Positions 20,273 to 55,911 of a stretch of DNA of 64,000 bases are shown one piece after another. Positions within the stretch are counted from its first letter, which is position 1. Each line of letters starts with the position of its first letter. A model generated the notes under the pieces. That model searched no databases. It saw only the letters and a program-made list of their open reading frames with translations, and was not told the origin of the DNA. The stretch is from NCBI RefSeq assembly GCF_021233435.1, contig NZ_CP089468.1:1116001-1180000 (forward strand), written 5' to 3'. This DNA is from Halobacterium noricense (GTDB lineage Archaea > Halobacteriota > Halobacteria > Halobacteriales > Halobacteriaceae). Made by a program: the position numbers and the translations under genes.

Positions 20273-20560
20273 TCTATGTATCCCAGTTCTCGCAGTCGAT
20301 CCTCTGTTTCCTCGTCAAGGTTCTCGTTGCTCCCAGCTCCCACGTCTGAAACGTCGGATTTTAGTTGCTCCTTCAGTGCCTCCTCAAGTTCGACCGGGTG
20401 GTCTCCCCAACAGTCGTTCCGTTCCATCGGATCGGTGGACCGGTCGTAGGCTTCCCAACTTCAGTACCTCACAAAGCATCGCCAGTTAGCCTGACCTGAG
20501 CCATCTGTTCTGTTGTGATGAGTCGTCAGTAACGGTCGAGCAACGCTGATCGAAGAGGGA

Positions 20561-20600
20561 GCTGTCGCTGTCGGCGGCAGTCAGCCGCCGACGCGACAGC
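20561..20600. terminator. Strong hairpin at the 3' end of the ISH3-family element
   Basis: gctgtcg plus tcggcggc pair with gccgccga plus cgacagc around a 5-nt loop, with small internal bulges. It lies about 35 bp beyond the transposase stop, where a terminator or a transcription block would protect the element from outside reads. Confidence 0.45.
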
Positions 20601-20636
20601 GTTGCCACTCCTGAAGGGAGCTTGCTCGGTCGGTGA

Positions 20637-25941: not shown

Positions 25942-28848
25942 TTAGTTCTGGCGGAGTGCCAGCAGGGCAGCACCGAGGACGGCGATGAGCGCGATGCCCA
26001 TGCCGAAGCCGGGGATGCCGCCGCCGGACTCGCCGGAGGGTTCCGTCGTCTCAGCTGCGGTGGTCGACGGAGCTTCCGTGGTCGACGGAGCTTCCGTGGT
26101 CGACGGAGCTTCCGTGGTCGACGGAGCTTCCGTGGTCGACGGAGCCGTCGTCGTCTCTTCGACTTCCTCGACGATCTCGATGTCCTGACGGTCGGTGTTG
26201 TCACCGTCGGAGGCTTCGAGCGTGTACTCGCCAGGTTCGACGTTCGCAAGATCCATCTCAACGGACCACTGACCGTCAGTGCCCCATTCCTCCGTGCTTG
26301 CGAGCGTCATCGAGTCACCATCCTGGTCGAGGAGCTCGACCGTGATGGTGTTGTCGTCGGGATTGCGGTTCGTCTGCCCCTCAACTGTGAGGGTCCCGCC
26401 AGCCTCGACACCATCAACCGATTCGATGGTGGTGAGACCAGACGTAAGACGGATGTTCTGGGTGACGATCAGGTCGTCGCTGGCCGTGTCGTCAACCGTA
26501 TTCGCGAGGATGCGGTCACGGACCTGATTGCCCGTGCTGGAACCGCTTCCGTAACTCTCGATCTGATCCGCGAAGTCACTCACGGTATTCTCTTCGAGAC
26601 TGTAGTCTTCACCGAAGGTGTCGTCGCGACCAGGCGAGATGAGGTGCGCGGAAACCGTCCCTTCACTCAGGGGGTTCCCGTTCCTGTCAACCAGCTGGAT
26701 GTCTTCCTTGTCGAAGGTTCCGTCGTTATCGACGGAGACCGTCTCTGCGCCCACGTTCCCGCGGGAGTCGACAAATGCGGCGACGAGAGTGTCCTGACCG
26801 GGTGCGGTCCCTTCGACGTCAATCTGGCCGTCCTCCGTCGCGATCTGGCCGTTGTACGTCGTGAACGAACCGTTCAGCTCCGTGTCAGTCACCGTCAGCG
26901 AGGACGTGCTGCTGATACCACTGTTGAAGTCGGATGTCGACAGGGTATTGTCGACCTCGCCGTCACTATCATCGTCAGTGTCGGCGTCGGTCGCGTCAAT
27001 CACGCCCAGACGGTAGGTGCCCGGGAGCGAAAGCAGGTTGTTGCCGTAGTCGCCCTCGGAGATTGTGACGTCCTCCTCTTCGAAGGTGTTGTCGCTGTCG
27101 ACTTCGATCGTCCGATCACCGTCGATGCGGACGAGCTGGAAGTCGTTGTTGTCGCGAGCGTAGATTGCGACTTCGTTGGTACCTTCGTTCGCGGTACCGT
27201 TGACGTCAACTTCAGAGCCAACGACGTACGCACCGGAGGGACTGTCAAGCGAAACGTCGCCCTCGGTCACGTCGAACGACGTATCGTCGTCGGTTTCAGC
27301 GTCAGCGAGCGGGTTGGTGCCGGAGTCGGAGAGGGTGCCGTCATCTGCGTAGCCACCGGAGGCTTCGTAGAGGTCGATGTCGACGGACGAGTCATCGAGG
27401 TACTGCGTCTCGATGGACCCGACACCGTTGCCGCCGTCAATTTCGACGATTCCGTACGTGTAGTCGATGTCGTCGATGCTATTGACACTGGAGAGGTCAT
27501 CACCAGCGGCGTAAACGTTCCCGTCAGTGTCGACGATACCGGTTTCGCTGGTGTCACCGACGTTCCGCATGATGTTCGTGATGTTACTCACGGAGACATC
27601 ACGGAAGTCGCCGGAGTCGATCGTGACTGCGTGGAAGTTGCCTTCCGGGCTGTTTTCGATGGTGTACTGGAGGTTCTCACCCTGCACGACCTCCTCAGAC
27701 GCCAGGCTCAGCGTCGATGTCTGCGAGGACGAAATCGTCACGGAAACCGTCTCCGTGGCGTCCCCGAAGTCGAGGTCGTCAGCGCCCTCGACGGTGAACG
27801 TGTACTCACCGGCGTCAACAGCATTCGGGTTGATGTCGATGCGACCGTCGCCGTTCATCGTGTCGGTGTTATCGACGATTTCGTCGGTGACATCAAGGCC
27901 GTCTTCGTCTTCGACGGTCAGCTCGATGTCTTCAGCGTTGTCGTAGTTGTACTCGACGTAAACCGAGGCGTCCTGCTGTTGCGTGTTCAGAATCCCGCCG
28001 CTGACGTCAGACTCGGCGTTGTTCTGGACTTCGAGCGTCGTCACACGCGGCGTCGAGACGGTCAGGCCGCCGTCACCGAAGGGAGACGGACCGTCGTAGG
28101 TGCCCGTCGTCTGGTCTTCGGGGATCGGCATCGCGAGCGGGACGCCCTGGTCGGCGCCGCTTGCACGCTCGAAGCTACTTGCGCTCACGTCGTTCACGAA
28201 CTCAAGGTCACCTTCACCCTGGTAGACGGTCGAGTTCGGACCGACGGTCTCGTACTTGCCGTCGCCGACGTCAACGTCGTCGGAGCGACCGTCTGCCGGG
28301 CCAGTCGACTCAATAACCGTCACCGCGCTGGAGCGGGTGGCAGAGGACGTACTGTCATCGTTTGCGCCAGAGTCTTCAACGGAAACCGTCAGGTCAGAAG
28401 AAGCACCAGCGCTAGCAGCGGACGCGTCGATGACGGCACCATCAACGGTGATCGTGCCGGCGTCGACACCACTGCTGTCGGGCTGCAGGTTGAACGTGAT
28501 TTCGCCGTCAGTGTTCACCTGCTCATTCTGGCTAATCGAGACATCGTTACTAACCTGAACCTGGTTAGCGTCACTGAATTCGAAGTTAGCGGCGTCAAGG
28601 GACACCGTGAATTCGACGGTTTGACCGGAGTTGTCCGGGTTCAGGTTGCTGATGTCGAATGTGACATCCTCTGTTTGCTTGGTTGTACTCAGATCAATGT
28701 TGTTCTGCCCACCAACCTGGATGTTCTCCGGACTGGAGGCATTTGCCGCGGCGGCAGTTCCTGTGAACGCGATGCCGGCTGCGAATACGGAGCCGATCAT
28801 CAGCGCAGTCAGGAAGACCGCGCGGAGCTTATTTGTTGTATCAGTCAT
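25942..28848 (-). CDS. csg: S-layer glycoprotein with PGF-CTERM anchor
   Basis: 968 residues from ATG at 28848; the frame is open to 29106 but the extension is not protein-like. A 34-residue signal peptide (MTDTTNKLRAVFLTALM to AAA) leaves a mature start A-N-A-S. The body has several beta-sandwich repeats with VPLAMPIPEDQTTG, SIETQYLDDSSVDIDLY and ANTVDDTASDDLIV, recalled from H. salinarum csg. A Thr/Pro-rich stalk with four PSTTEA repeats precedes GGGIPGFG, a membrane helix and RQN, the archaeosortase-processed PGF-CTERM tail. Five N-x-S/T sequons were counted (NAS, NST, NIT, NGT, NGS). It forms the outer cell envelope. Confidence 0.95.
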   Translation of the reverse strand: MTDTTNKLRAVFLTALMIGSVFAAGIAFTGTAAAANASSPENIQVGGQNNIDLSTTKQTEDVTFDISNLNPDNSGQTVEFTVSLDAANFEFSDANQVQVSNDVSISQNEQVNTDGEITFNLQPDSSGVDAGTITVDGAVIDASAASAGASSDLTVSVEDSGANDDSTSSATRSSAVTVIESTGPADGRSDDVDVGDGKYETVGPNSTVYQGEGDLEFVNDVSASSFERASGADQGVPLAMPIPEDQTTGTYDGPSPFGDGGLTVSTPRVTTLEVQNNAESDVSGGILNTQQQDASVYVEYNYDNAEDIELTVEDEDGLDVTDEIVDNTDTMNGDGRIDINPNAVDAGEYTFTVEGADDLDFGDATETVSVTISSSQTSTLSLASEEVVQGENLQYTIENSPEGNFHAVTIDSGDFRDVSVSNITNIMRNVGDTSETGIVDTDGNVYAAGDDLSSVNSIDDIDYTYGIVEIDGGNGVGSIETQYLDDSSVDIDLYEASGGYADDGTLSDSGTNPLADAETDDDTSFDVTEGDVSLDSPSGAYVVGSEVDVNGTANEGTNEVAIYARDNNDFQLVRIDGDRTIEVDSDNTFEEEDVTISEGDYGNNLLSLPGTYRLGVIDATDADTDDDSDGEVDNTLSTSDFNSGISSTSSLTVTDTELNGSFTTYNGQIATEDGQIDVEGTAPGQDTLVAAFVDSRGNVGAETVSVDNDGTFDKEDIQLVDRNGNPLSEGTVSAHLISPGRDDTFGEDYSLEENTVSDFADQIESYGSGSSTGNQVRDRILANTVDDTASDDLIVTQNIRLTSGLTTIESVDGVEAGGTLTVEGQTNRNPDDNTITVELLDQDGDSMTLASTEEWGTDGQWSVEMDLANVEPGEYTLEASDGDNTDRQDIEIVEEVEETTTAPSTTEAPSTTEAPSTTEAPSTTEAPSTTAAETTEPSGESGGGIPGFGMGIALIAVLGAALLALRQN
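26062..26145 (-). repeat. 18-bp tandem repeats coding the Thr-rich S-layer stalk
   Basis: Plus-strand unit ggtcgacggagcttccgt occurs four times without a mismatch (26062-26133) and a fifth partial copy follows. It encodes APSTTE repeats. Identical DNA units in a coding region suggest recent slippage and variable stalk length. Confidence 0.85.
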
Positions 28849-30905: not shown

Positions 30906-32048
30906 TCAGCCCCGAAGCGCCTCAACAGGCGAATCATTCGCTGCTTTCCACGCGGGGTAGAGGCCACTGATCACACTCGCACCAACCGCGAACGCGAATC
31001 CGTACAGGAGATACCGAGAACTCTCCCACGCCAACACGGCCATCGCGTCGCCAGTGAGCACACGAAACAGGAGGAAACCAACGCCTAGCGAGCCGAGTGC
31101 GCCGACCAGTCCACCGAGTACACCGAGGAATGCGGCCTCAGTCAGAATCATGCGGAGGACCTCGCCACGACGAATGCCGACCGCCCGAAGTACACCGATC
31201 TCACCGCGTCGTTCGATCGTACTCATTAACATCACGTTCAAGATCGCGACGCTCGCGACGAACAACGAGATTGACCCGATTCCGAGGAGTGCCAACTCAA
31301 GCGTATTCATGAACGTGGTGATGCCACCCTGGATATCAGCGCTTGTCTGGATGCTCAGCAGTTCTTCTTCATTCCGCCCGTCCGTGTTGAAATGGGCGTC
31401 AAGCCGATCACCGATCGACGTGACTGCGTCGCCGCCTGCCGCGACAACCGTCACCGAATCATACTGGTCTTGATCAGACAGTGCTGACAGCGGCAACACG
31501 AGCTGCCCACCACCGAATCCAAAGCCACCGTCAGACTCAATCAATCCCCGAATCCGATAGAGCTGGCCATCGTACTCGACTGGGTCGCCAAGTTCAAGCC
31601 CCAGTTCTTGGGCCGTACTATTCGAGAGTAAGGCTCCGGTCTGCAATCGGTCTGGGACCTCACCCGAGGAGACGTCATAGAGTTCGCTCGCCTCCGTCAC
31701 TCCTGTGACGCTCACCCGGACGTCCTCCCCTCTCGAAGAGACGTCGGTGTCGTTTGTTTTCTGCTCGACGACCGCGGCATCGGTGACAAGACTCTCTATT
31801 TCGTCGAGCTGTGCCTGCGTGACGCCGTCCTCGGGACTGTCATCGCCGGCCGTGATCGTTACCTCGTTGGCGATGTCCCCCAACTGGGAGGTTGCCTGTT
31901 GGTTGATCGCGACACCAGCCATGCCCAGCGACGCGATCGAAATCACACCGATGACGATGCCGAGTGCCGCGAGGGCGGTTCGAACGCGATTTCGGCCGAG
32001 GTTGCGCCACGCCATCAACACGCTCGGAAATCGCGACAGCAGACTCAT
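30906..32048 (-). CDS. ABC transporter permease, MacB/FtsX type
   Basis: 380 residues. An N-terminal helix (ALAALGIVIGVISIASLGMAG) is followed by a large MacB-type extracellular domain, then an FtsX domain with three helices: NTLELALLGIGSISLFVASVAI, RGEIGVLRAVGIRRGEVLRM and the final FAFAVGASVISGLYPAWKAA with SPVEALRG. This four-helix layout is typical of lipoprotein or efflux permeases. The start overlaps the ATPase stop (ATGA). It works with the next two upstream genes as one exporter. Confidence 0.92.
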   Translation of the reverse strand: MSLLSRFPSVLMAWRNLGRNRVRTALAALGIVIGVISIASLGMAGVAINQQATSQLGDIANEVTITAGDDSPEDGVTQAQLDEIESLVTDAAVVEQKTNDTDVSSRGEDVRVSVTGVTEASELYDVSSGEVPDRLQTGALLSNSTAQELGLELGDPVEYDGQLYRIRGLIESDGGFGFGGGQLVLPLSALSDQDQYDSVTVVAAGGDAVTSIGDRLDAHFNTDGRNEEELLSIQTSADIQGGITTFMNTLELALLGIGSISLFVASVAILNVMLMSTIERRGEIGVLRAVGIRRGEVLRMILTEAAFLGVLGGLVGALGSLGVGFLLFRVLTGDAMAVLAWESSRYLLYGFAFAVGASVISGLYPAWKAANDSPVEALRG

Positions 32049-32710
32049 GACTGAATCACGCCATCCACGATGCGAACGACTCGGTCTGAATACTGCTCTA
32101 GCTGCTTGTCGTGGGTGATTGCAACGATCGCGATGTTTTCCTCGTCTTTGAGCCGCGTCATCTCCTCAAGAATTGTCCGCCCCGTATCTTGGTCGAGGTT
32201 GCCGGTTGGCTCGTCAGCGAGCAGAATATCGGGCTGGTTGATGAGCGAGCGGGCGATTGCCACGCGTTGTTTCTGGCCACCAGAGAGCTGTTTTGGCGTA
32301 TGATCGAGCCGATCACCAAGACCAACCCGCTTCAACAACTCGATTGCGCGATCATGGCGGTCAACGGACGTATCCCACATCGAGGGGAGCTCGACGTTCT
32401 CGACGGCCGTCAGCATCGGGAGTAAGTGGAACGACTGGAAGATGAAGCCCAGTTCCGCTCGTCGTTCCTCCGTGCGTTCGTCCTCACTGAAGTCAGTAAC
32501 ATCCCGCCCATCAAGGAATACAGATCCGGCGGTTGGTGAATCCAGTAACCCGATCATGTTGAGCATCGTGCTCTTTCCGGAGCCGGATGGACCGACAACA
32601 GTAACCATCTCCCCCCGATCGGCGTGGAAGTCGATGCCCTTCAGGGCGTCGACGGTTTCAGCGCCACTCTGATAGCGCTTGACGACATCCTCCAGCTGAA
32701 TCACACTCAT
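32045..32710 (-). CDS. ABC transporter ATP-binding protein, MacB/LolD type
   Basis: 221 residues from ATG at 32710 (MSVIQLEDVVKRYQ), chosen because it overlaps the upstream stop as ATGA. Walker A GPSGSGKSTM, Q-loop FIFQSFHLLPMLT, signature LSGGQKQRVAIARSL and Walker B ILLADEPTGNLD are all intact. It energises the permease at 30906 by mechanotransmission across the membrane. Confidence 0.95.
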   Translation of the reverse strand: MSVIQLEDVVKRYQSGAETVDALKGIDFHADRGEMVTVVGPSGSGKSTMLNMIGLLDSPTAGSVFLDGRDVTDFSEDERTEERRAELGFIFQSFHLLPMLTAVENVELPSMWDTSVDRHDRAIELLKRVGLGDRLDHTPKQLSGGQKQRVAIARSLINQPDILLADEPTGNLDQDTGRTILEEMTRLKDEENIAIVAITHDKQLEQYSDRVVRIVDGVIQS

Positions 32711-33882
32711 TGGACACGCCAACGGTAGATAACTGCCGCCAGCCCAACGAGGAGGAGTGCCCCGACCGCAAGAACCGTCACCGGGAGGCCACCTGACGTA
32801 TCGTTTTGCGGCGGCTGCTGGCGGGCCGCATTTCTATCGCTGCTCACGCGTTCGGACACATCAACGGGAACCACCTCCGAGAATTGCTCCCCATCGACGG
32901 AATAGTTGACTTGCACCGGGAGTTCGTCAACAGTTGATTCGGCAGTAACCGTTACTTCGAACGTCGCGAACTCGCTGGTTTCGATGGAGCCGACGAAGTA
33001 ACCCCCGTTTGAGGACAACCCCTCAGTAGGCGCAACATTGATGAGTACGGAGTTTGCATCACCACTCCCTAGATTTGATGCATCACCACTAATCGTGTAT
33101 GCCGTTCCCTGAGCAGTGGTCTCAATCCCGGTTAACGCCATCTCCGCGGCTCGCTGTGGATTATACCGCAGAGTTGTATCCGTCGTTCGGGGCTGCTGTT
33201 CGTCGGTAAGCCGATACTGTGCACGAACCGTGACCGCTCCCGCGGGGATATCACCGCCTTCGAAGGAGACTGTCTGTGACTGGCTCCCGGAGATGTTTGA
33301 CACCGGTGCGCGATCGACAATTTCGCCATCGGCACGCACCTGTACCTCACCGGATTCAATCGCCACAGTCCCATACTGCGTAACCGTTGCTGCAATTCCC
33401 GTTGAACCGTTCACCGATTGCGCTTTGGCCGTGACCCCGACGTCGGTTGCACGTTCTTCGACCGTAATGTAGACCGATTTCTGAACGACGAACACGCTAC
33501 TGTCCGGATTAGTGCCACGGGCCGTGACCACAACTCGGTGTGTCCCAGGATCTTCGAAGGTGTGTGAAAGCGGCACTTCAATCGAGTCGCCACCGCCGAG
33601 CCGGCCGAGATTATCTGCAGAATTGAGCTTGGACTGGCCACGAACACTCACTTCAGTTAATCTCGCATTCCCACCGGCCGACTCAGAGTTCGTAACGGTC
33701 GGCGTGATAATAACTTCTGCATCAGTGGTCGGTTCATTCGGGGCAACTGTAATCTCACCAATCGTGACTGATGCATCGGAATTGGGTGTCGATTGAGCCG
33801 CTGTTATCGGAGCAAACGCTGCTGTCGAGAGTAGCACAACTATCGCGACGAGAACTCCCATCCGGTGGGCCTTGTCAATCAT
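32707..33882 (-). CDS. Exported membrane-anchored CARDB-like partner of the ABC exporter
   Basis: 391 residues. A signal peptide (MGVLVAIVVLLSTAAFAP then ITAAQ) is followed by three or four beta-sandwich modules of the COG1361/CARDB kind (GEITVAPNEPTTDAEVIITPTVTN, VGVTAKAQSV, LTGIETTAQGTAYTISG). One C-terminal helix (LPVTVLAVGALLLVGLAAVIY) and RWRVQ follow. It is the first gene of the ABC operon, so it plausibly plays the MacA-like extracytoplasmic role, though it shares no recognisable MacA sequence. Confidence 0.8.
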   Translation of the reverse strand: MIDKAHRMGVLVAIVVLLSTAAFAPITAAQSTPNSDASVTIGEITVAPNEPTTDAEVIITPTVTNSESAGGNARLTEVSVRGQSKLNSADNLGRLGGGDSIEVPLSHTFEDPGTHRVVVTARGTNPDSSVFVVQKSVYITVEERATDVGVTAKAQSVNGSTGIAATVTQYGTVAIESGEVQVRADGEIVDRAPVSNISGSQSQTVSFEGGDIPAGAVTVRAQYRLTDEQQPRTTDTTLRYNPQRAAEMALTGIETTAQGTAYTISGDASNLGSGDANSVLINVAPTEGLSSNGGYFVGSIETSEFATFEVTVTAESTVDELPVQVNYSVDGEQFSEVVPVDVSERVSSDRNAARQQPPQNDTSGGLPVTVLAVGALLLVGLAAVIYRWRVQ

Positions 33883-44626: not shown

Positions 44627-47626
44627 CTACTGATTATCTCGGCGTCGAGCTGCAAGGACGGTAGCTGCGATAAACGCGAGAATCGGCAGACTTACCGGAA
44701 TACCGAATAACTCGCCGAATGGCATTTCGACGTTGTGCGTCGGTCGGCCCTGGCTGGGAGTCGTTGTGGCGTTCGTCGGTGTCGTGGTCGATTCCTGCGC
44801 TGTTTTCGTCGCGGGAGCTCCTGAATTAGCGTCCGTTGTCGTTGTTGGGGCCGTTGGCGGTGTCGTTGTTTGGGAGTCTGTGGCTGTTGCAGTCGGGACT
44901 AACAAACCACCGGAGCCTCCGCCGCCAGACGAACCGCCGCCGATAGGCGAAGTCGTTGACGATTCCGTTGTGCGCTTATTGGACTCAACAGTCACGGTAA
45001 GGGCGTCCGTTCCTACATTTCCAGCGGCGTCCGTGACCGCGAGACGGACCGTATAGTCCCCCGGTTCCGCAAACGCTGTCGTCACGTTCTCGCCACTCCG
45101 CTGCGCCCCGGCAACCACCCATTCGTAATCGACGATTCGCGTCGTCGGTTCAGCGACGTGCATCGGGCTGAAGGACACATTCGAACCCGCGTCAGCAGTC
45201 TGATTCTCCCCAACATCAACAGCGGGCGGTTCCGTATCAATAACGACCTCGTTGGTCGTGTCGCTGGCTACGCGACCCGACACACCCGAGACGGTCACGT
45301 GGACGCGTCGCTGCTCGGTCACGTTACTGACCGTAACGTCAATCGTCGCTTCGTACGTCGAAGCATCGATTGCGTTGAGGGCAACCGATCCTGCGCCGAA
45401 CGCCGACGCATCTGCGGTAACGGAGTCGGCGGCCGAAGAGACCTCCGCCGTAATTGTGACGCGATCAGTCTCGTTAACGATCGCGTTCTGATCGGTTGTA
45501 TCCGTCAGTGTCGCGTTCGTCAGCAGTGGCTCAAGTGTCGCATTCGCTGTGAGGGTATCGTCGTGGATCTGGTCGTCAGTGGCCGTCGCGTCGGTGAGCG
45601 TCACGTTGTAGTTCCCTGTTGTGTTCGCCTCATAGCGGCCAGTGTACGTGTACGTCGGGGCGGATTCGTTTGTTGAGAACGCATCGACGGTGAGGGTATC
45701 GGTTTCCGCGCCCGCAATCTCGACTGTGACGGCATCCAGCGTATGCGTTGTATCGAACGAGAGGTTTAGGTCGCCGTTTCGCGCAGTTGCTGTGAGGTTC
45801 GTGACGTCGAAGGGGTCACCGAGCGTCGCATTCGCAGTAAGATCGGGCGTGGCAACATCACCGTCCGTGGACTCGGCGCGCTCGAGTGTACCGTTGTATG
45901 TGCCGATTTCGGTGGTCTCGTACGTTGTCTCATAGGTGTAATCGTCGCCAGCCACGTTTTCTGTGAAGTTCCCGTAGTTGAGCGTCGTATTCGGTGGTCC
46001 GTCGATGTCGACAGTAGTTCCACCCAGTTGTTCGCTCGCGTTGAAGGCGACGTGGATACCATCCGTCTCGTTCGTCAGCGTGAAGTTCCACACGTCCAGT
46101 GGTTCGTCTGCGATTGCCGAGTCGGTGAGATTCTCGTCGTCAACCTGGTCATCGTCGGAGGTCGCCTGCGTGAGCGTGACGTTGTACTCGCCCGCTGTAC
46201 TCGCGTTGTACGTACCCGTGTACACGTATGGAGAGTCCGAACTAGACGTCGAGAAGTTATTGAGATCGAGAGTGTCGTTTTCGGCGCCGCCAATATCGAC
46301 GGAGGCTCCTGAGAGTTGGTCGGTGGCGTTAAACGAGATATTGATAGCGAAGCCGTTTGCGGTCGCATTCAGGTCGGTGACGTTGAATCGTGTGTCGATG
46401 GTCGCATTATCCGTATACTCGGGAGTTGCGGTGTCGCCATCAGTGGCGGTCGCAGAGTTGAGGATGGCCGTGTAGTTGCCATCCATACCCGGGCGGTAAT
46501 CGCCAGTATAGGTGTAGCGGCCATCAGTAGTGTTCTCGGTAAAATCAGTCAAGTTGAGCGATTCACTGTCGGGGCCGTCGATCGTAACATCCAGCGAACT
46601 GAGGTCGCTACTCGAGTTAAATGATGCTTGTAACGTGCCCGAGTCATTCACGAGGGTGAAGTTTGAGAGCACAAGTGGGGCATCCTGCACCCAAGCGACG
46701 CCCGCCTCGGCGTCTGCCGTTCCACTCACAGCATCAATCGGCCCGGTCGATTTGTCGAGCGTTACATAGTACGGTTCGTCGTTCTGGCTCGAATTCAAGA
46801 ACAGGACTTCTAGGTTAGAACCATTCACCCAGTCGACCGCTGCTACCGGCGATTTTGCTGCACTTCCGTCCTGCATGAGTGTTTCTGGGCTGCCACTCCC
46901 GTCGACAAGCGCCACGTTATTGCTACCCGTAACGATCGGAATCCGCGCAGTCCCGTCGCCATCGAGGTCCCGTGGCGCACCGATACCATGTCCATCACTG
47001 CTTCCAACTCCATTCGTGTAGAAACTATTCTCGACACCGGATTGGTTGTAATACCCGATGTTCGAGCCATCGGTGTAGACGACTTCCGGCGTTCCATCAC
47101 CAGTGACGTCCCCAACGCCAGCGACAGCTTTCGTCGCGGTGTCCGCACCATCCAGTATTCTGGTTGTGTTGTCTACGATGTTGGCGGCCTTCAGCACGCC
47201 GTCCGGCGTGGAGTAGTAGACGCTGTCTTCGCCGTCTTCGTCGTGATCACCGATTGCAACCTTCGCTTTCGATTTGTCAGCGTCCGTTGTCAACGTCATC
47301 ATCTCACCAGTCTTATCGACGATCTTCAGGTGATTATTGCTCGTCACGTACGGAATTTCAACGTATCCATCACCATCGACGTCCTTCCCAGCGCCGATTG
47401 CGTTAGCGTTGACACCGAGATTGATCTCACTTCCAGCCTTCGTGACGAGCGTTAGATTCTCACCGTTCACGTACGCGAACGTTACCGTTGAGTTAGTGTC
47501 CCCCGACTGTGCTGACGCGCCAGCGACTGTTGACGCCTGTAGCCCAGCTCCAACCGCTAACGCAGTGATGACCGAAAGTACCCCCAGGATGACCGCTGAT
47601 TTTCGAAGACACCCACCCACTCGCAT
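44627..47626 (-). CDS. Giant adhesin-like surface protein: propeller-like head, four Ig-like repeats, PKD domain, C-terminal anchor
   Basis: 999 residues. After a signal peptide (ILGVLSVITALAVGAGL) come FG-GAP-like blades (KDVDGDGYVEIPYV, GDVTGDGTPEVVYTD, RDLDGDGTARIPIV) over about residues 40-320. Four repeats of about 95 residues follow, each NFTL- or NVTDL-led with Y-TGxY-xxxGxYNxTL. Next is a domain of NETDRVTITAEVSS type and a PKD domain (VDVGENQTADAGSNVSF, PGDYTVRLAVTD). A Gly/Thr-rich stalk leads to FGIPVSLPILAFIAATVLA and RRRDNQ, an archaeosortase-like tail. Dozens of sequons. Probably a highly glycosylated adhesin. Confidence 0.8.
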   Translation of the reverse strand: MRVGGCLRKSAVILGVLSVITALAVGAGLQASTVAGASAQSGDTNSTVTFAYVNGENLTLVTKAGSEINLGVNANAIGAGKDVDGDGYVEIPYVTSNNHLKIVDKTGEMMTLTTDADKSKAKVAIGDHDEDGEDSVYYSTPDGVLKAANIVDNTTRILDGADTATKAVAGVGDVTGDGTPEVVYTDGSNIGYYNQSGVENSFYTNGVGSSDGHGIGAPRDLDGDGTARIPIVTGSNNVALVDGSGSPETLMQDGSAAKSPVAAVDWVNGSNLEVLFLNSSQNDEPYYVTLDKSTGPIDAVSGTADAEAGVAWVQDAPLVLSNFTLVNDSGTLQASFNSSSDLSSLDVTIDGPDSESLNLTDFTENTTDGRYTYTGDYRPGMDGNYTAILNSATATDGDTATPEYTDNATIDTRFNVTDLNATANGFAINISFNATDQLSGASVDIGGAENDTLDLNNFSTSSSDSPYVYTGTYNASTAGEYNVTLTQATSDDDQVDDENLTDSAIADEPLDVWNFTLTNETDGIHVAFNASEQLGGTTVDIDGPPNTTLNYGNFTENVAGDDYTYETTYETTEIGTYNGTLERAESTDGDVATPDLTANATLGDPFDVTNLTATARNGDLNLSFDTTHTLDAVTVEIAGAETDTLTVDAFSTNESAPTYTYTGRYEANTTGNYNVTLTDATATDDQIHDDTLTANATLEPLLTNATLTDTTDQNAIVNETDRVTITAEVSSAADSVTADASAFGAGSVALNAIDASTYEATIDVTVSNVTEQRRVHVTVSGVSGRVASDTTNEVVIDTEPPAVDVGENQTADAGSNVSFSPMHVAEPTTRIVDYEWVVAGAQRSGENVTTAFAEPGDYTVRLAVTDAAGNVGTDALTVTVESNKRTTESSTTSPIGGGSSGGGGSGGLLVPTATATDSQTTTPPTAPTTTTDANSGAPATKTAQESTTTPTNATTTPSQGRPTHNVEMPFGELFGIPVSLPILAFIAATVLAARRRDNQ

Positions 47627-47867: not shown

Positions 47868-50183
47868 ATGACCGACGTGCGCGAGGAGACAGCCGCCCTC
47901 CTCGACAACCGACCGGGGCTCGCCGACGACCTCCGGACACTCGTGGACGTCGATCGCGAGCAAGATGTGTGGACGTTCGACGAGACGCCACTCGACTCCG
48001 GAACATTCGGGGAGCTCGTCTCCCGTGGCATCGCTACCGAATCCGAGAATGGGTATCGCCTCGCGGACCGTCACGCCGTTCGCGTTGCGCTCGGTGACGC
48101 CGAACCCGAACGAACGCCCGACAGCGCGACTGCGGGCCTTCGGGAACGATTCGCCGTCTCGAATATCCCGGGGCATGTGCTTGCGGCCGTTGTTGGCTGC
48201 CTGCTCGTTGTCGTCGCATTCCGCGTATTTGTCTACCCTCGCGTATTCCGTGGGGAACACGTCGTCCTGCTTGGAAACGACCCGTACTACTATCGGTACC
48301 TCGTCTTCTCGATGCTGGACTCCGGTGCCGGCACCCTCGATGTCCCGGCGCAAATTGCGACCGGCGAACCCCTGCTTGTCGCGCTTCTCGTCGCCGTTAC
48401 GCGAGCGTTCGGTGGAAGCACAAGTGTCGCGGAACTTGTGCTCGCCTGGTATCCTGTCTTTGCCGCAGTTGGGAGCGCGATTATTTGCTATTTCCTTGCG
48501 GTAACCCTCTCTCGTGACCGCCGGGTCGGCCTCGCATCACTACTCATTCTTGCGGTGTTACCTGTCCACGGCTACCGGACTGCGCTCGGCTTCGCCGACC
48601 ACCACGCACTGGACTTCCTCTGGCTTGGCGTCGTCGCACTCGCTGCCGTCCGCACACTCCCCGCGAGGACGAAGTTCGAGTGGCGGTCGCAGCTCCCGTG
48701 GGCTGCTGTCCTGGCGGCTGGGATCGCTGCCCAAGCACATTCGTGGAACGCTGCGCCACTGTTGTTCGTGCCGTTCGTCGCCTATGCGGTCGTGCGGAGC
48801 GCAGCTCTCGTCCGCTCCGGGGATTCGCTACGTGCGGACATCCTCCTCATCGTGGGCGTCGGTACCGGGGGACTGCTCGCTGTTGCCGGCCACTTGGTGC
48901 TTGGCTGGCAGTCCCCCAACATCGTCGTGCCGCCGATCCTTGCGGCTGCAGCGATGGCGTTTGCAGTCGGAATGGCAGCGCTCACACGCCGACTCGACTG
49001 GCCTGCCTGGGTGGCTTCCGTCCTAGCGGCCGGGAGTGGAGTGCTCACGCTCGGAGTTGTCGTCATGATTGAACCGTCGTTCGGGGCCGAACTCAGCCAG
49101 GAGTTCTCCCGGCTCGTCGGAATGTCTGGCAGCAACATCGTTGAGACCCGGTCGTTATTCAGTACTGACTACGGACTGTTGGCGGGCCCAATCTTCTTCT
49201 ATGGAACCGCGTTGTTGTTCGCGCTCCCTGCGGGCGCGTGGGCGTTCTACGTAAAATTCGACAACCCGCGATGGTTGCTCACCGCGTCGTACGGCCTGGT
49301 GTTGTTCGGACTTGCGGTGACGCAAGTCCGGTTCACGGGTGAACTCTCGCTGTTCGTCGCGGTGTTCGCTGGATTCGCCTTCGTCTACTTCCTCGCTGTC
49401 GTCGACATTACGGACCCACCGCAGCTATTCGCCGACAGCACCCCCCGCGAAGCCGATGACCGTGCCTTGCGCTCGTTCACGCTACCTGAGCGCCGCACGC
49501 TCGTCTCACTTGGGTTGGCGTTCCTGCTGGTCGGTGGGCTTGGGACGATGATGACGCCCCTTCGCACGAACACGATCGTACCAGCTGACGACACCTACGA
49601 GGCGGCGGCGTGGATGGAAGACGAAGTTCAGTCCCCGGAGTGGACGAGCGACCAGCAGTACGTGTTTAGCACATGGGGACAGAACCGTCTCTATAACGCG
49701 TTCGTCTCCGGCGACTCCCGGAGCTACGGGTATGCACGAACGAACTACGAGCAGTTCCTCAACGCAACGAATAGCCGAGGGTGGTATGAACGGCTGCGTA
49801 ACCGGGCAGCCTTCATCGTGGCTGACGAAGACTACGCGAGCGGGTATGACGCAGCGAAGCTGGCTTCGCGGCTCGCTGACTGGGGGAGCGGTACTGGGCA
49901 CTACCAGGCGGTGTGGGCTGGCGGCTCGAAAACGGTCTACACGCTCGTCCCGGGCGCGACCATCCGTGGGACGACTGACGCGAACGCCACAGTAACTGTT
50001 ACGCACGAGGGGGCGGTGTCAGGGCAGCCGTTTACGTATGAACGGACGACAACAGCGGCGGCGAACGGCACATACACCGTGCGCGTTCCCTACGCTGGCG
50101 AGTACGATATAGCCGGAACGGCGGTCGAAGTCCCTGAGGACGCAGTTCAGAACGCGCGACAAGTAAACGTATCCGCGGCCTGA
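47868..50183 (+). CDS. Divergent STT3/AglB-family oligosaccharyltransferase with N-terminal small domain
   Basis: 771 residues from ATG at 47868; an upstream in-frame GTG at 47853 is less likely. Residues 1-75 form a small soluble domain (DVWTFDETPLDSGTFGELVSRG) of winged-helix look. A polytopic GT-C region follows with GNDPYYYRY (Asp138, first catalytic motif) and FADHHALDF (D244-H-H). In the periplasmic domain the sequon-reading WWDYG is replaced by TWGQN (602-606). A C-terminal beta domain (GTTDANATVTVTHEGA) ends it. It should move glycans from dolichol onto protein at the outer face. It faces glmS, whose stop is 6 bp away. Confidence 0.82.
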   Translation: MTDVREETAALLDNRPGLADDLRTLVDVDREQDVWTFDETPLDSGTFGELVSRGIATESENGYRLADRHAVRVALGDAEPERTPDSATAGLRERFAVSNIPGHVLAAVVGCLLVVVAFRVFVYPRVFRGEHVVLLGNDPYYYRYLVFSMLDSGAGTLDVPAQIATGEPLLVALLVAVTRAFGGSTSVAELVLAWYPVFAAVGSAIICYFLAVTLSRDRRVGLASLLILAVLPVHGYRTALGFADHHALDFLWLGVVALAAVRTLPARTKFEWRSQLPWAAVLAAGIAAQAHSWNAAPLLFVPFVAYAVVRSAALVRSGDSLRADILLIVGVGTGGLLAVAGHLVLGWQSPNIVVPPILAAAAMAFAVGMAALTRRLDWPAWVASVLAAGSGVLTLGVVVMIEPSFGAELSQEFSRLVGMSGSNIVETRSLFSTDYGLLAGPIFFYGTALLFALPAGAWAFYVKFDNPRWLLTASYGLVLFGLAVTQVRFTGELSLFVAVFAGFAFVYFLAVVDITDPPQLFADSTPREADDRALRSFTLPERRTLVSLGLAFLLVGGLGTMMTPLRTNTIVPADDTYEAAAWMEDEVQSPEWTSDQQYVFSTWGQNRLYNAFVSGDSRSYGYARTNYEQFLNATNSRGWYERLRNRAAFIVADEDYASGYDAAKLASRLADWGSGTGHYQAVWAGGSKTVYTLVPGATIRGTTDANATVTVTHEGAVSGQPFTYERTTTAAANGTYTVRVPYAGEYDIAGTAVEVPEDAVQNARQVNVSAA

Positions 50184-50189: not shown

Positions 50190-51992
50190 CTATTCGACGG
50201 TGACGCTCTTCGCAAGGTTTCGCGGCTTGTCGATGGGCCGTCCTTTCTCGTTAGCGACGTGGTAGGCGAACAGTTGGAGGGCGACGTTTGCGACGACCGG
50301 TTCCATCGGTCCACAGTCGGGGACGTCGAATGTCGCGTCGACGTGTGCAGTCGCGTCCGGGTCACTCGCCACACCGATAACCGGTGCGCCCCGTGATTTT
50401 ACCTCTTTGACGTTGTTCAGCGTCTTCTTGCGCGCGGTCTCGCTCGTGAGGAGGGCGATGACCGGCGTGTCGGAGGTGACGAGTGCGAGCGGGCCGTGCT
50501 TGAGTTCTCCCGCGGCGAACCCTTCGGCGTGGTCATAGGAAATCTCCTTGAGTTTGAGCGCGCTCTCCAAGGCGACGGGATAGCCGGCGCGCCGCCCCAC
50601 GTAGAAGAACGCGTCACTGTCCGCGTACTCCTGTGCGATCTCCTTGATGTGGGCTTCCTGGTCGAGGACTTGCTGGACCGCGCCGGGGAGGTCACGCAGG
50701 CTTTCGAGGAGTTCCGACGCGACTTCCGTCGACATCTTGTTGCGTACCTGGCCGAGGTGGACGGCAAGGAGCGCTGCGGTGGCGACCTGTGAGACGAACG
50801 TCTTCGTCGCAGCCACCCCGATTTCGGGACCCGCACGAATGAAGACCGTATCGTCGGCCTCCCGCGTGACCGTACTGCCGAGCGTGTTCGTGAGTGCAAG
50901 CGTTCGCGTGCCGGCGCGCGACGCCTCGCGGAGCGCGGAGAGTGTGTCCGCGGTTTCGCCGCTCTGCGTGATGGCGACGACGAGTGTCCGCCACGGGTCG
51001 CGGCCACCCTGGAAGTCGTACTCGCTGGCCACGTGGACGGTGACGCGGACGTCCGCTTTGGCTTCGAGAAGTTCCTTCGCGAACAACCCCGCGTGATAGG
51101 AGGTGCCGCAGGCGACGATCTGGATCTCCTCGACGGATTGGGGATATTCCGCGGGCAGGTCGACGTCGAGGTCAACGCCCGTCGAGAGTTCATCGATGCG
51201 CCCGGAGATGGCTTGCCGGAGCGCCCGCGGCTGCTCGTGAATCTCCTTGAGCATGTAGTGGTCGTAGCCACTTTTGCCCGCGGCGTCGGCATCCCAGTCG
51301 AGCGTCTCGGTCGTCCGTTCGACGTGGTTGCCGTCGTTGAAAATGTCGACGCCGTCCTTGGTGATGTGTGCGATGTCGCCGTTCTCGAGGTACGTTACGC
51401 GGTTCGTGTGCTCAATGAACGCGGTGGCGTCGCTCCCGATGAACGTCTCGCCGTCCGCGTGGCCGAGCAGGAGCGGACTGTCCTCCCGCGCGACGACAAT
51501 CCCGTCGTGGCCAACCGCCGTCACCGCAATCGCGTAACTTCCTTCGAGGCGACTCGTGGCGCGCTTGACGGCGGTGAGCAGGGAGACATCGTCCGCGAGG
51601 TGCGTCTCGATGAGGTGTGGGATGACTTCGGTGTCGGTGTCGCTACGGAAGACGTGGTCGTCGCGGAGCTCGGCTTTGAGGTCGTCGTAGTTCTCCACGA
51701 TGCCGTTGTGGACGACTGCAACCTCGCCCGTGCAGTCGGTGTGTGGGTGGGCGTTCTCCTCGGTCGGCTCGCCGTGCGTACTCCAGCGCGTGTGGCCGAT
51801 GCCACAAATGACGCCGTTGCGGGAGGGAACGGGGAGATCGCCGACCTCACCCTCGGTTTTGTGAATCGTGAGGCCGTCGCCGTTGAGTGCGATGCCCGCG
51901 GAGTCGTAGCCGCGGTATTCGAGATTCTGCAGTCCCTGGTGGACGATTTTGCCCGTTGCGTCGGTGCCGATGTAGCCGGTGATTCCACACAT
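50190..51992 (-). CDS. glmS: Glutamine--fructose-6-phosphate aminotransferase (isomerizing)
   Basis: 600 residues. The N-terminal glutaminase starts MCGITGYIG with the nucleophile Cys2, and EYRGYDSAGI and GHTRWSTHG follow. Two SIS domains (ACGTSYHAGLFAKELLE with GETADTLSALREA, and YVGRRAGYPVALESALKLKE) and the terminal KPRNLAKSVTVE complete it. It makes glucosamine-6-phosphate, the first step to UDP-GlcNAc. It starts 2 bp after the GlmU-like stop, so it is the third gene of a glmU-glmU-glmS operon. Confidence 0.97.
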   Translation of the reverse strand: MCGITGYIGTDATGKIVHQGLQNLEYRGYDSAGIALNGDGLTIHKTEGEVGDLPVPSRNGVICGIGHTRWSTHGEPTEENAHPHTDCTGEVAVVHNGIVENYDDLKAELRDDHVFRSDTDTEVIPHLIETHLADDVSLLTAVKRATSRLEGSYAIAVTAVGHDGIVVAREDSPLLLGHADGETFIGSDATAFIEHTNRVTYLENGDIAHITKDGVDIFNDGNHVERTTETLDWDADAAGKSGYDHYMLKEIHEQPRALRQAISGRIDELSTGVDLDVDLPAEYPQSVEEIQIVACGTSYHAGLFAKELLEAKADVRVTVHVASEYDFQGGRDPWRTLVVAITQSGETADTLSALREASRAGTRTLALTNTLGSTVTREADDTVFIRAGPEIGVAATKTFVSQVATAALLAVHLGQVRNKMSTEVASELLESLRDLPGAVQQVLDQEAHIKEIAQEYADSDAFFYVGRRAGYPVALESALKLKEISYDHAEGFAAGELKHGPLALVTSDTPVIALLTSETARKKTLNNVKEVKSRGAPVIGVASDPDATAHVDATFDVPDCGPMEPVVANVALQLFAYHVANEKGRPIDKPRNLAKSVTVE

Positions 51993-51994: not shown

Positions 51995-53158
51995 TTAGCC
52001 TCGCGTGACGTGACTGCCGTCCTCGATGCGGCCCTTGACCAGCGTTGCGCTGTCGACGGTCGCGTCGTTGCCGACGATCGAACCAGGTGCGATTGTGACG
52101 TTCGCGCCGATGTCGACGTTGTCGCCGGTCAATCCGCCGAACCTGACATCCTGATAGACCGTATCGTCGAGCACTACATCAGCTGTCCCACCCTCGACGG
52201 TGGTGTTCGGGCCGATGGACGCGTTCGCGCCGACGATACAGTCGTTCACTATTGCCCCAGACTCTATCGTGCAATCTGATAAGAGTATCGCGTTTTTCAC
52301 TACTGCGCCGGCACCGATGCTTACGTTATCGCCGAGTGTTACGCCCCCGAGAATCGTCGCTTGTGGGTGGACGACGACGCCGTCACCGAACACGGTGGCG
52401 TCGGCGATAACCGCTGAATCGTCGATAGCTGCGTTCTGTGGTGGCTGCGGTTCTCGATCCTTGATGAGTGCGTTGTTGACGGTGAGGAGGTCCCACGGCT
52501 CGGAGACATCGAGCCAGCGGCCACGGTACCTGACCGCGCGAATCCGCTGGTCGTCGAGCCGCGTCGAGAGCGTGTCCGTCAGTGCCTGCTCACCGTAACT
52601 ATCTGTCTGGCGAATTGCCGCGAAGATACTGGGATCGAACGCGTAGACGCCCGCGTTGATGAAGTTCGATTTTGCGAGTTCCGCGATAGGCTGCTCTTCG
52701 ATGCCGGTGACGGTTTCGCCGTCGAGTTCGACGACGCCGTAATGGCTTGGCTTCTCGACCTGTGTCACGCCCATCGCCGGGTCGCCGGTCTCTTGGTGGC
52801 GCTCCCACACGTCCTCGATAATCGACGCGTCGATGATGCGGTCGCCGTTAACCGCAATGAACGACTCACCAACCTGTGATTCCGCTTGGAGAAGCGCATG
52901 TCCCGTTCCAAGCTGTGGGTCTTGGATGGCATAGGAGATATCAACGCCCCACGCGTCGCCGTTCTCGAAGTGCCGCTGCACGCGTTCGCGATTCGACCCA
53001 ACGACGAGAACGATCTCGGAGACGCCAGCGTCGACGAGCGCGTCAACGATATGCTCTAGGAGAGGGCGGTTCGCGACGGGGATCATCGGTTTCGGGCGAT
53101 TCTCGGTGAGCGGCCACAGCCGCTCACCTTTCCCCGCCGCGAGCACGACAGCCTGCAT
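51995..53158 (-). CDS. Bifunctional sugar-1-phosphate nucleotidylyltransferase/acetyltransferase (GlmU-like) 1
   Basis: 387 residues. N-terminal nucleotidylyltransferase: VVLAAGKGERLWPLTENRPKP, FIAVNGDRII and VEKPSHYGVVEL. The C-terminal left-handed beta-helix (about residues 235-387) has hexapeptide repeats VFGDGVVVHPQATIL, LGDNVSIGAGAVVKNAIL and VDIGANVTIAPGSIVG. It should turn GlcN-1-P plus acetyl-CoA and UTP into UDP-GlcNAc, as archaeal GlmU-like enzymes do. It lies 13 bp downstream of a paralogue and 2 bp upstream of glmS. Confidence 0.9.
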   Translation of the reverse strand: MQAVVLAAGKGERLWPLTENRPKPMIPVANRPLLEHIVDALVDAGVSEIVLVVGSNRERVQRHFENGDAWGVDISYAIQDPQLGTGHALLQAESQVGESFIAVNGDRIIDASIIEDVWERHQETGDPAMGVTQVEKPSHYGVVELDGETVTGIEEQPIAELAKSNFINAGVYAFDPSIFAAIRQTDSYGEQALTDTLSTRLDDQRIRAVRYRGRWLDVSEPWDLLTVNNALIKDREPQPPQNAAIDDSAVIADATVFGDGVVVHPQATILGGVTLGDNVSIGAGAVVKNAILLSDCTIESGAIVNDCIVGANASIGPNTTVEGGTADVVLDDTVYQDVRFGGLTGDNVDIGANVTIAPGSIVGNDATVDSATLVKGRIEDGSHVTRG

Positions 53159-53171: not shown

Positions 53172-54365
53172 TCACTCCCGGTTCTTATCAGTTCCTACGC
53201 GCTCGCCGAGATCCGTCCGCGTCTCCGTCCCGAGCGTCACGCCCGCGTTGAGACTCGTATTAATGCCGGTCTTCGTGTCATCACCGACGACCACACCGAA
53301 CTTCCGGCGACCAGTATCCACCATCTCACCTTTCACCTGAACGTGGACGGTATCCTCGTCATGGCGGAGGTTGGCGACCTTCGTCCCTGCGCCGAAGTTC
53401 ACGTCCGCGCCGAGCACGCTGTCCCCAACGTACGCGTGATGGCTCACGGCCGTTCCAGCCATCAGAATCGAGTTCTTGATTTCGACGGCGTTCCCGACGC
53501 GGACATCCGGCCCGATGACCGTCGACCCACGGACGTACGCGTTCGGCCCAACGTCTGCACCGGCCTGAATTCGAACTGGTCCTTCGATGTACGCGCCATC
53601 CCGAACCCGTGCGCCCTCTTCGACGACAACGGGCCCCTTGAGTGTCGCGCCGTCTTCGACTTCGCCCCGAATGTCTCGGTCGAGGTCATCGAGGAGGTAG
53701 CTGCTCGCTCCCAGGAGCTCCCACGGCCGCCCAATGTCCAGCCAGGGGCCATCGTATTCGACGGCAGTCACGCCATCGTCCAGCGCCATCTCAAGGGCGT
53801 CCGTGAGTTCGTACTCGCCGCGCTCGCTGAGTTCCGTCCGCTTGATGTACTCGAAGATTTTGGGCGTGAACCGGTACAGCCCGAGATTCGCGAGATTCGT
53901 CGGTGGGTCTGTCGGCTTCTCCACGATGCTCGTCACTCGGTCTCCATCGAGTTCGACGACGCCGTACGAACGCGGGTTCTCGACGGGCATCACGGCCATC
54001 GCTGTGCCGGTCTGTGCTGCCAGATCCTCGACGAGTGCGTCCGTGACGTAGACATCCCCATTCAGCACGAGCACGTCCTCATCCACGTACGGTTCGGCCT
54101 GCCCAACAGCGTGTGCGGTCCCGAGCTGTTCGGCCTGTTCGGCGTATTCAACGGGAAGTCCTTGATACGTCTCGCCGATCTGATTCCGTATTTGGTCGCC
54201 CTCGTAGCCGACGACTACAACGTAGCTGTCGACGTACGGCGCAGCGACGTTGAGGACGTGTTCGAGAATCGGCTTTCCCGCGACCGGGAGTAGCGGCTTT
54301 GGCCGCCCGTCTGTTAACGGCCCCATGCGTGTTCCCTGGCCGGCAGCGACGACGATAGCCTGCAT
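53172..54365 (-). CDS. Bifunctional sugar-1-phosphate nucleotidylyltransferase/acetyltransferase (GlmU-like) 2
   Basis: 397 residues, paralogue of the gene at 51995. It has VVAAGQGTRMGPLTDGRPKP, LVLNGDVYV, VENPRSYGVVEL and VEKPTDPPTNLANLGLY, then a beta-helix with GPVVVEEGARVRDGAYIEGP and VNFGAGTKVANLRHD. The latter motif resembles the acetyl-CoA site of GlmU. The two enzymes may share the steps of UDP-GlcNAc synthesis or serve different sugars such as GalNAc. A palindromic cttaag 31-36 bp before its ATG is a plausible TATA element. Confidence 0.9.
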   Translation of the reverse strand: MQAIVVAAGQGTRMGPLTDGRPKPLLPVAGKPILEHVLNVAAPYVDSYVVVVGYEGDQIRNQIGETYQGLPVEYAEQAEQLGTAHAVGQAEPYVDEDVLVLNGDVYVTDALVEDLAAQTGTAMAVMPVENPRSYGVVELDGDRVTSIVEKPTDPPTNLANLGLYRFTPKIFEYIKRTELSERGEYELTDALEMALDDGVTAVEYDGPWLDIGRPWELLGASSYLLDDLDRDIRGEVEDGATLKGPVVVEEGARVRDGAYIEGPVRIQAGADVGPNAYVRGSTVIGPDVRVGNAVEIKNSILMAGTAVSHHAYVGDSVLGADVNFGAGTKVANLRHDEDTVHVQVKGEMVDTGRRKFGVVVGDDTKTGINTSLNAGVTLGTETRTDLGERVGTDKNRE

Positions 54366-54483: not shown

Positions 54484-55911
54484 ATGATGAACGGGGGTTG
54501 GCGGTACCGCGTTGGCAGCGCCCTCGGCGTCGCGGCGCTGACCGCGCTAGCGGTCACGGTCGCGAACAGCCCCGCCATTCAGAGCATTCTGGGTACGCTT
54601 CCCCTCATCGGGCAGCTTTCCGTCGACCCCCCAGCGGGCGCGGAGGGGATTCTCGAAACCGCGACGACCGTCGTCGTCGTGACGGCCGTATTCGTGCCAC
54701 TCTACAAGCCCCGGCCGCGCCGCATTCTCGACGTGGTCGTATTCGCACAGAAGCGCGTCCTCGTCGCGATGCTCACGCTCGCCGCAATCGGCTACTTCGA
54801 CTACACGTACCGGCTTCCACGGGCGACACTGCTCGCGGTCACGCCGGTGTTACTCGGCGCGCTCCCTGCGTGGTTCGTCTGGATTCGCCGCCTGCCAAGT
54901 AATGACGCCGAGCGCGCGATCGTCGTCGGTGACGACCCGGAGGAAATTGAGAGCCTCGCTGGCGACGTTGACATCCCGATTCTGGGCTATCTCTGTCCGA
55001 CGAGTGCGTTCGACCGCGTCGCAAGCGCGTCACCACCGTCGGCAATCGTCGCAGATGGCGGATTCACGCTCCACGGCATGGAACGCCTCGGCGGCCTCTC
55101 CCGCATCGAGGACGTACTCGTCGAGTACGATATCGATACGGTGGTGCTCGCGTTCACACACACCGACCGCGCGGAGTTCTTCGGCGCCCTCGACGCCTGC
55201 TACGAACACGGCGTCGACGCGAAAGTCCACCGCGACCACGCCGACCAGGTGTTGACCTCCGATAGTGATGTCGGGACACTCGTCGACGTCGATGTCGAAC
55301 CATGGGACATCCAGGACTACGTGCTCAAGCGCGGCTTCGACCTCGCCTTCTCGACGGTTGGGCTGGTCGCGTTGAGCCCCATCATTCTCGCAATTACGGT
55401 GGCGATCAAGCTCGATGATGGTGGTTCCGTGCTGTACAAGCAGGAACGGACGGCTGTCTTCGGCGAGACGTTCGACGTGTACAAGTTCCGGTCGATGGTC
55501 GAGAACGCCGAAAACCAGACTGGCGCAACGATCAGCGATGAGGACGCGGGTGGTGTCGATCCGCGCGTCACGCGAGTCGGGCGCATCCTTCGGGAGACAC
55601 ACCTTGACGAGATTCCGCAGCTGTGGGCAGTTCTGAAAGGCGACATGAGCGTGGTCGGCCCACGACCCGAGCGGCCGGAACTGGATTCGGACATTCAGAC
55701 TGGCGTCATCGATTGGCGAAAGCGCTGGTTCGTCAAACCCGGACTGACGGGGCTCGCCCAAGTGAACGATGTGACTGGTGCGGAACCGGCAGAGAAGATT
55801 CGCTACGACCTCCAGTACGTCAAACAGCAGTCGTTCTGGTTCGACATGAAACTCGTCATCCGTCAAGTGTGGAAAGTGGTCGTGGACGCCGTCGAAGCAT
55901 TCTGGAACTAA
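54484..55911 (+). CDS. Polyprenyl glycosylphosphotransferase (bacterial sugar transferase family)
   Basis: 475 residues. The first third has four membrane segments, then a Rossmann-like middle (ERAIVVGDDPEEIESL). A further helix (FDLAFSTVGLVALSPIILAITVAIKL) leads into the catalytic domain: LYKQERTAVFGETFDVYKFRSM, RVGRILRETHLDEIPQLW, VLKGDMSVVGPRPE and KPGLTGLAQVND. It should transfer a sugar-1-phosphate from a nucleotide sugar to a polyprenyl phosphate and so start a glycan. This is a second possible initiation route besides the AglJ-like enzyme. No gene follows for over 300 bp. Confidence 0.93.
   Translation: MMNGGWRYRVGSALGVAALTALAVTVANSPAIQSILGTLPLIGQLSVDPPAGAEGILETATTVVVVTAVFVPLYKPRPRRILDVVVFAQKRVLVAMLTLAAIGYFDYTYRLPRATLLAVTPVLLGALPAWFVWIRRLPSNDAERAIVVGDDPEEIESLAGDVDIPILGYLCPTSAFDRVASASPPSAIVADGGFTLHGMERLGGLSRIEDVLVEYDIDTVVLAFTHTDRAEFFGALDACYEHGVDAKVHRDHADQVLTSDSDVGTLVDVDVEPWDIQDYVLKRGFDLAFSTVGLVALSPIILAITVAIKLDDGGSVLYKQERTAVFGETFDVYKFRSMVENAENQTGATISDEDAGGVDPRVTRVGRILRETHLDEIPQLWAVLKGDMSVVGPRPERPELDSDIQTGVIDWRKRWFVKPGLTGLAQVNDVTGAEPAEKIRYDLQYVKQQSFWFDMKLVIRQVWKVVVDAVEAFWN

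Follow-up and report, generated by a model that had tools for sequence, protein, structure and literature searches.

A haloarchaeal STT3 paralogue family that has lost the sequon pocket and kept the catalytic centre: a candidate second oligosaccharyltransferase, possibly for Asn-2 of the S-layer glycoprotein

N-glycosylation is regarded as governed universally by the sequon Asn-X-Ser/Thr. In the catalytic subunits of oligosaccharyltransferases (OSTs) generally, the +2 Ser/Thr is received by a pocket built of the WWD element and the DK or MI motif (PMC3703281, PMC8342417), and roles are likewise described for the metal-binding Asp, the TIXE Glu and the phosphate-site Arg, R426 of Archaeoglobus fulgidus AglB (AfAglB; PMC8342417). 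AglB of Halobacterium salinarum uses Dol-P glycans (PMC8674786, PMC11980604). The repeat-unit glycan, which is linked through GalNAc to Asn-2 of the S-layer glycoprotein (PMC2952790), has Dol-PP as its carrier (PMC8674786); bacitracin stops it and not the other N-glycan, and glycosylation of Asn-2 persists when the +2 Ser is changed to Val, Leu or Asn (PMC2952790). The role of AglB at Asn-2 was unclear as of 2019 (PMC6591318), and a 2010 review put the number of OST genes in the H. salinarum genome sequence at one (PMC2952790).

The window analysed here, a stretch of 64,000 nucleotides from Halobacterium noricense, encodes a protein of the same fold beside a set of sugar-metabolism genes (Table 1). 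Its reading frame opens at the ATG at 47868, the start used across the family, and the protein matches the Pfam families STT3 (1.8e-8) and AglB_L1 (4.1e-8), both above cut-off. The archaeal STT3 model TIGR04154, whose cut-off of 450 bits no match of this paralogue reaches in 59 genomes, scores the protein at 133 bits, and none of the other NCBIfam models names this family. We found no description of the family in the papers searched; a 2020 AglB phylogeny cited in PMC13308652 may include it among AglB paralogues. Between the window gene and a 78% orthologue, codon positions 1, 2 and 3 differ 124, 79 and 384 times, showing that the protein is held under selection. A PDB search with the single sequence gave nothing useful, and a profile search matched AfAglB; the AlphaFold2 model computed with the family alignment (mean pLDDT 91, pTM 0.85) retrieves only AglB, STT3 and PglB structures at ranks 1-18, headed by A. 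fulgidus AglB 7e9s, followed by DPY19, ArnT and PMT.

Table 1. Features of the window around the STT3 paralogue and the S-layer gene
Feature	Position	Strand	Basis or remark
STT3/AglB-fold second oligosaccharyltransferase-like protein, 771 aa	47868..50183	+	Pfam, AF2, PDB matches
N-terminal soluble domain, aa 1-79, common to haloarchaeal EMC3/TMCO1-like (PF01956) proteins	47868..48104	+	hhalign
Gly-Asn-Asp138, first DXD motif, metal ligand (= D47 of AfAglB)	48273..48281	+	profile match to 3waj/5gmy
Asp244-His-His246, second DXD motif (= D161/H163 of AfAglB)	48597..48605	+	
Asn-Ile-Val-Glu426, TIXE motif, external loop 5 (= T-I-A-E360)	49134..49145	+	aligned to AfAglB TIXE
Arg488 (QVRF), phosphate-site Arg (= R426 of AfAglB)	49329..49331	+	alignment
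S-T-W-G-Q-N-R-L-Y-N (aa 601-610) replacing S-W-W-D-Y-G-H	49668..49697	+	hhalign register
Variable aa 646-674, short; the DK-motif helix and ~40 residues occupy this place in canonical AglB	49803..49889	+	alignment columns
C-terminal AglB_L1 peripheral beta domain, aa 696-757	49953..50138	+	Pfam PF18079
GlmS, glutamine-fructose-6-phosphate aminotransferase	50190..51992	-	TIGR01135 779 bits; conserved neighbour
GlmU-like sugar-1-phosphate nucleotidylyltransferase/acetyltransferase 1	51995..53158	-	TIGR03992 292.6 bits, borderline (cut-off 292.1)
GlmU-like sugar-1-phosphate nucleotidylyltransferase/acetyltransferase 2	53172..54365	-	TIGR03992 549 bits
Polyprenyl glycosylphosphotransferase (PF02397), proposed Dol-PP glycan starter	54484..55911	+	PF02397 3e-61
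999-aa PKD-domain surface protein, divergent neighbour	44627..47626	-	conserved in CBA1126 (64%)
FtsX permease, ABC ATPase, CARDB protein	30906..33882	-	
S-layer glycoprotein (TIGR04216), precursor start MTDTTNKLRAV	25942..28848	-	984.6 bits / 983 bits
Glycosyltransferases, sulfatase-family proteins, flippase, FkbM-like methyltransferase by S-layer gene	8516..25085	.	

An earlier note on this DNA, made from the letters alone, had seen Asp138 (GNDPY), D244-H-H and S-T-W-G-Q-N-R-L-Y-N, and had placed TWGQN where other family members have WWDYG. In the translation GND138PYYYRY, D244-H-H246 and S601-T-W-G-Q-N-R-L-Y-N610 indeed stand at the positions given. The note's register proved right by profile-profile alignment: with profiles of 58 paralogue relatives and 21 canonical haloarchaeal AglB proteins, hhalign sets S601-T602-W603-G604-Q605 on S658-W659-W660-D661-Y662 of the canonical AglB of the same genome (probability 100, E 3.4e-44). 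The second Trp of WWDYG is retained as W603; its first Trp and its Asp have been lost. The alignment across haloarchaea that the note had proposed finds the change family-wide, with WWD in none of 79 members and a consensus of S-x-W-G-x-N-R-[MV]-Y-N in its place. W603, R607 and N610 are invariant in all 58 aligned full-length relatives; among 21 further members gathered by another route W603 is present in 20, and R607 and N610 in all, W603 being retained in 78 of the 79 overall. The presence of the signature in 79 members rules out a one-off substitution or sequencing error. Nor did the outcome that the note had named as refuting it, another segment supplying WWDYG, find support at the level of sequence: the protein has no WWD anywhere, and the alignment shows no further conserved W-W-D block.

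The alignment columns of paralogue versus canonical proteins further place a deletion at the DK-motif segment: the paralogue passes from a strand RVGYVV through ~15 variable residues to RLHxxxGS, whereas canonical proteins have VDWQM..KFxAP and ~40 more residues, and the paralogue has no conserved Lys or Met/Ile there. D138, E426 and R488, on the other hand, are conserved in 79/79 members. The second metal motif is mostly DHH, with EHR in 22 of the 79 and DHQ in 2; the EHR replacement may alter metal binding. In a Natrialba-type subclade (for example loci L030, L043, L050-L055 and L072) GFLEHR takes the place of GFxDHH, and the first Asp, the TIXE Glu and the Arg are intact. Judged by these alignments, the family has lost both elements of the Ser/Thr pocket and kept the catalytic centre. 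The loss of DK and the retention of E426 and R488 are additions to the earlier reading, which had proposed a transferase whose acceptor choice is relaxed or different; the family-wide pattern of lost pocket and kept catalytic elements bears out its sequence side, and the transferase itself may be inferred from that pattern. That the acceptor is chosen independently of a +2 Ser/Thr appears fairly probable.

The N-terminal domain, a small helical/winged unit, is as unusual for the family as had been noted, canonical AglB having no counterpart of aa 1-79. Its relative, which the note did not give, is found at the N-terminal end of an EMC3/TMCO1-like protein from haloarchaea (PF01956 at 1.4e-44), to which the domain aligns with an hhalign probability of 98.6, E 7.8e-16 and 30% identity; an example of such a protein lies at L008:1492-2358. 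Across 12 genomes the domain is restricted to these two families, and since it precedes the first transmembrane helix in both, it is probably cytosolic. Archaeal EMC3-like proteins contact ribosomes. At the other end, two ~1000-aa members (L046, L056) carry a fused C-terminal Laminin_G_3/ConA-like lectin domain.

The genome-wide count of AglB homologues that had been suggested turned up one canonical AglB with intact WWDYG, 140 kb from the paralogue. Across the class, canonical AglB is found in 59/59 genomes and the paralogue additionally in 35/59, so the paralogue is an addition, and its standing as an AglB replacement is ruled out. About half of haloarchaea carry it, in each case along with a canonical AglB. 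A profile match at 1e-10 occurs in 275 of 391 genomes, about 210 being full-length by count of the matches listed, and 62 loci in named genomes encode relatives, nearly all haloarchaeal. One of these loci, a paralogue fragment, lies on a contig labelled as a Bacteroidetes MAG (L070, PXTV01000149.1), probably a misbinned haloarchaeal contig. Within Halobacterium an intact paralogue is present in 4 of 13 genomes, one of which has a distant one only.

Phosphoglycosyltransferases of the PF02397 type make polyprenyl-PP-sugars, and a homologue of the one in the window accompanies the paralogue closely. Among the 59 genomes 34 have both, one the paralogue only, four the enzyme only (38/59 have the enzyme) and 20 neither, with a Fisher p of 7e-11 that, as it ignores kinship and related genomes are not independent, overstates the evidence. 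The pair is separated by no more than 10 kb in 16 and by no more than 50 kb in 28 of the 34 genomes; canonical AglB comes within 50 kb of the enzyme in none of the 34. By locus, the enzyme is near 50/82 paralogues and 0/20 canonical AglB genes, several neighbour clusters in this comparison having been set aside as antisense ORFs. A flank count of 45/61 with the enzyme refers to loci found through the query's own peptide patterns; in an independent set of paralogues it is within 8 kb in 7/20 only, and the whole-genome co-occurrence was therefore tested instead. Mere clustering in any glycosylation island is ruled out as the source of the linkage by the canonical AglB neighbourhoods (0/20 and 0/34). 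In Halobacterium the enzyme is present in exactly three genomes, those with an intact, close paralogue. An OST-type transferase working with a phosphoglycosyltransferase pathway is a likely reading of the family.

In these three Halobacterium species (H. salinarum DSM 3754, CBA1126 and that of the window) the PF02397 enzyme, GlmS and GlmU adjoin the paralogue in 3/3, and the shared core includes the S-layer gene, which in the window is 19 kb away. In DSM 3754, the type strain, the order on one contig is S-layer gene (926644-928983), CARDB, ABC, FtsX, STT3 paralogue (932302-934614), GlmS, GlmU1, GlmU2 and phosphoglycosyltransferase. A fourth species (G002) has paralogue and GlmU fragments between two S-layer genes (C1:214034-214499; L076, L102), indicating that the operon decayed there. 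An S-layer gene above the TIGR04216 cut-off is found in 5/13 Halobacterium genomes; four of the five have the paralogue, and the remaining eight all lack it (p 0.007, overstated by kinship in the same way); the genome with the S-layer gene and no paralogue is G008. As a general neighbour of the paralogue the S-layer gene is ruled out beyond Halobacterium, where sugar genes are found instead.

The surroundings hold further genes. At least four sulfatase-family proteins stand among the glycosyltransferases near the S-layer gene (9847-23021); folds of this family also include phospho-sugar transferases. Within the same cluster a 388-aa frame at 20637-21803, for which a polymerase was considered and rejected, is an ISH3-family transposase, and a TnpB-like gene occupies the left end of the window (519-1739). 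Genes for a CARDB protein and for a transporter of the MMPL family (35117-39214) recur adjoining STT3 paralogues elsewhere (L104, L058, L039).

The acceptor might be sought in the S-layer protein itself. With signal cleavage put after AAA or AVA, by alignment and by the published mature protein, the predicted mature N-termini are ANASS in the window, ANAD in DSM 3754, ANAS in G002 and QAGN in CBA1126; the second copy in the window's genome (G000, contig C3:30564-32894, L092; TIGR04216 963 bits) gives A-N-E-V, with Asn at position 2 and no sequon, the second copy of G002 gives AGDI, and the paralogue-free G008 gives ASNP. The NAS sequon at Asn-2 thus occurs in 2 of the 7 N-termini examined, and among the operon-bearing species the window and DSM 3754 have Asn at position 2 and CBA1126 does not. 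Asn-2 with a +2 residue of Ser, Val or Asp agrees with a transferase free of the sequon, within a small and related sample in which CBA1126 is a misfit. The earlier suggestion that the paralogue is possibly the Asn-2 transferase stands in part: linkage to the S-layer gene, GlmS/GlmU and the phosphoglycosyltransferase in three species, with canonical AglB elsewhere, speaks for it, and the N-terminus of CBA1126 and the lack of a nearby S-layer gene in most members outside Halobacterium speak against it. The paralogue is the best candidate seen for this transferase, and the chance that Asn-2 is its acceptor in Halobacterium may be put at about even.

These patterns can be brought together if the paralogue serves as catalytic subunit in a separate, second route of protein glycosylation with Asn-2 as main acceptor, an explanation that we consider somewhat better than even. 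The PF02397 enzyme would load an amino-sugar phosphate onto dolichyl phosphate, the amino sugar coming via GlmS and the GlmU-type enzymes; glycosyltransferases would lengthen the glycan, a flippase would turn it outward, and the paralogue would move it from dolichyl pyrophosphate to asparagine, with D138, D244/H246, E426 and R488 acting as in AglB. As the +2 Ser/Thr pocket of WWD and DK helix is gone, the acceptor would be chosen without a hydroxyl at +2, being picked by the new S-x-W-G-x-N-R-[MV]-Y-N surface, with nearness to the N-terminus of the chain as a possible further guide, and in Halobacterium it would mainly be Asn-2 of the S-layer glycoprotein. More speculatively, the N-terminal domain might serve to attach the enzyme to the ribosome or translocon. 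The N-terminus of CBA1126, the confinement of the S-layer linkage to Halobacterium, EHR in 22/79 members and the single OST gene of PMC2952790 weigh against this explanation.

The new invariant set at the place of WWDYG, with W603 kept in 78/79, could also belong to a second N-OST that still reads Asn-X-Ser/Thr, holding the +2 hydroxyl by W603, R607 and N610 and specialised by donor rather than acceptor. Its donor-side genes, unlike those of AglB, and the two NAS N-termini would agree with this; yet the first Trp and the Asp of WWD are gone with the whole DK segment, described STT3/AglB/PglB enzymes retain WWDYG and DK or MI (PMC3703281), and Asn-2 of H. salinarum is independent of Ser (PMC2952790), which makes a sequon-reading enzyme unlikely. 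The acidic residues that grip the acceptor carboxamide in OSTs (D138 and the TIXE E426) are present in 79/79, and they argue against an OST-fold enzyme acting on something other than asparagine, such as Thr/Ser of surface proteins or, as a surface-polysaccharide ligase, a polysaccharide or lipid. That folds with other acceptors (DPY19, ArnT, PMT) are the next structural matches, that the neighbours resemble exopolysaccharide genes (a TIGR03025-like phosphoglycosyltransferase) and that some members bear the Laminin_G_3/lectin domain leaves such an enzyme a slightly smaller share still.

Least probable of all, and rather improbable in itself, is a degenerate STT3 relative that transfers nothing and serves as scaffold, regulator or chaperone. 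EHR for DHH in 22/79, the lost pocket and an N-terminal domain common to an insertase-like family might be expected of it; the strictness of D138, E426 and R488 in 79/79, the purifying selection and the near-obligate pairing with a glycan-initiating enzyme are hard to reconcile with it.

Returning to the separate glycosylation route, a wider generalisation may be offered with more reserve, as something short of an even chance: a widespread second class of archaeal OST, paired with a phosphoglycosyltransferase of bacterial type, sequon-free and guided by position or by a new surface, tied to export through the EMC3/TMCO1-like domain and serving Asn-2. If true, it would mean that an OST independent of the sequon exists in nature, one that might be put to use in glycoengineering. 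It also puts forward a gene for the decades-old puzzle of Asn-2 in H. salinarum, a site glycosylated in the absence of the Ser and from another lipid carrier.

Among known systems, haloarchaeal AglB (VNG1068G type; TIGR04154) shares with the paralogue the STT3 fold, GND and DHH, the TIXE Glu, the QxRF Arg and the C-terminal AglB_L1, whereas the paralogue lacks WWD and the DK segment, has a much shorter C-terminal globular domain and an extra N-terminal one, and is partnered by a phosphoglycosyltransferase and GlmS in place of the agl Dol-P cluster. The best structural match, aligned over its full length with a TM of 0.67, is A. fulgidus AglB-L (3waj, 5gmy, 7e9s), in which, unlike the paralogue, WWDYG and a variant DK motif (E613/K618, PMC3703281) form the Ser/Thr pocket. 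PglB and eukaryotic STT3 have the same catalytic residues and a pyrophosphate donor, as proposed for the paralogue, but they possess WWDYG with MI/DK, need the sequon and are only 10-15% identical. The DPY19 C-mannosyltransferase parallels it in joining an OST-like fold to a changed acceptor, but uses Dol-P-Man and Trp acceptors and is outranked by nearly all OSTs in the structural comparison. Finally, a second OST has been hypothesised for H. salinarum Asn-2 and for H. volcanii (PMC6591318, PMC2952790), and the traits predicted for it, that it be apart from AglB, use a Dol-PP donor and not need the +2 Ser, are those that the candidate paralogue would fit.
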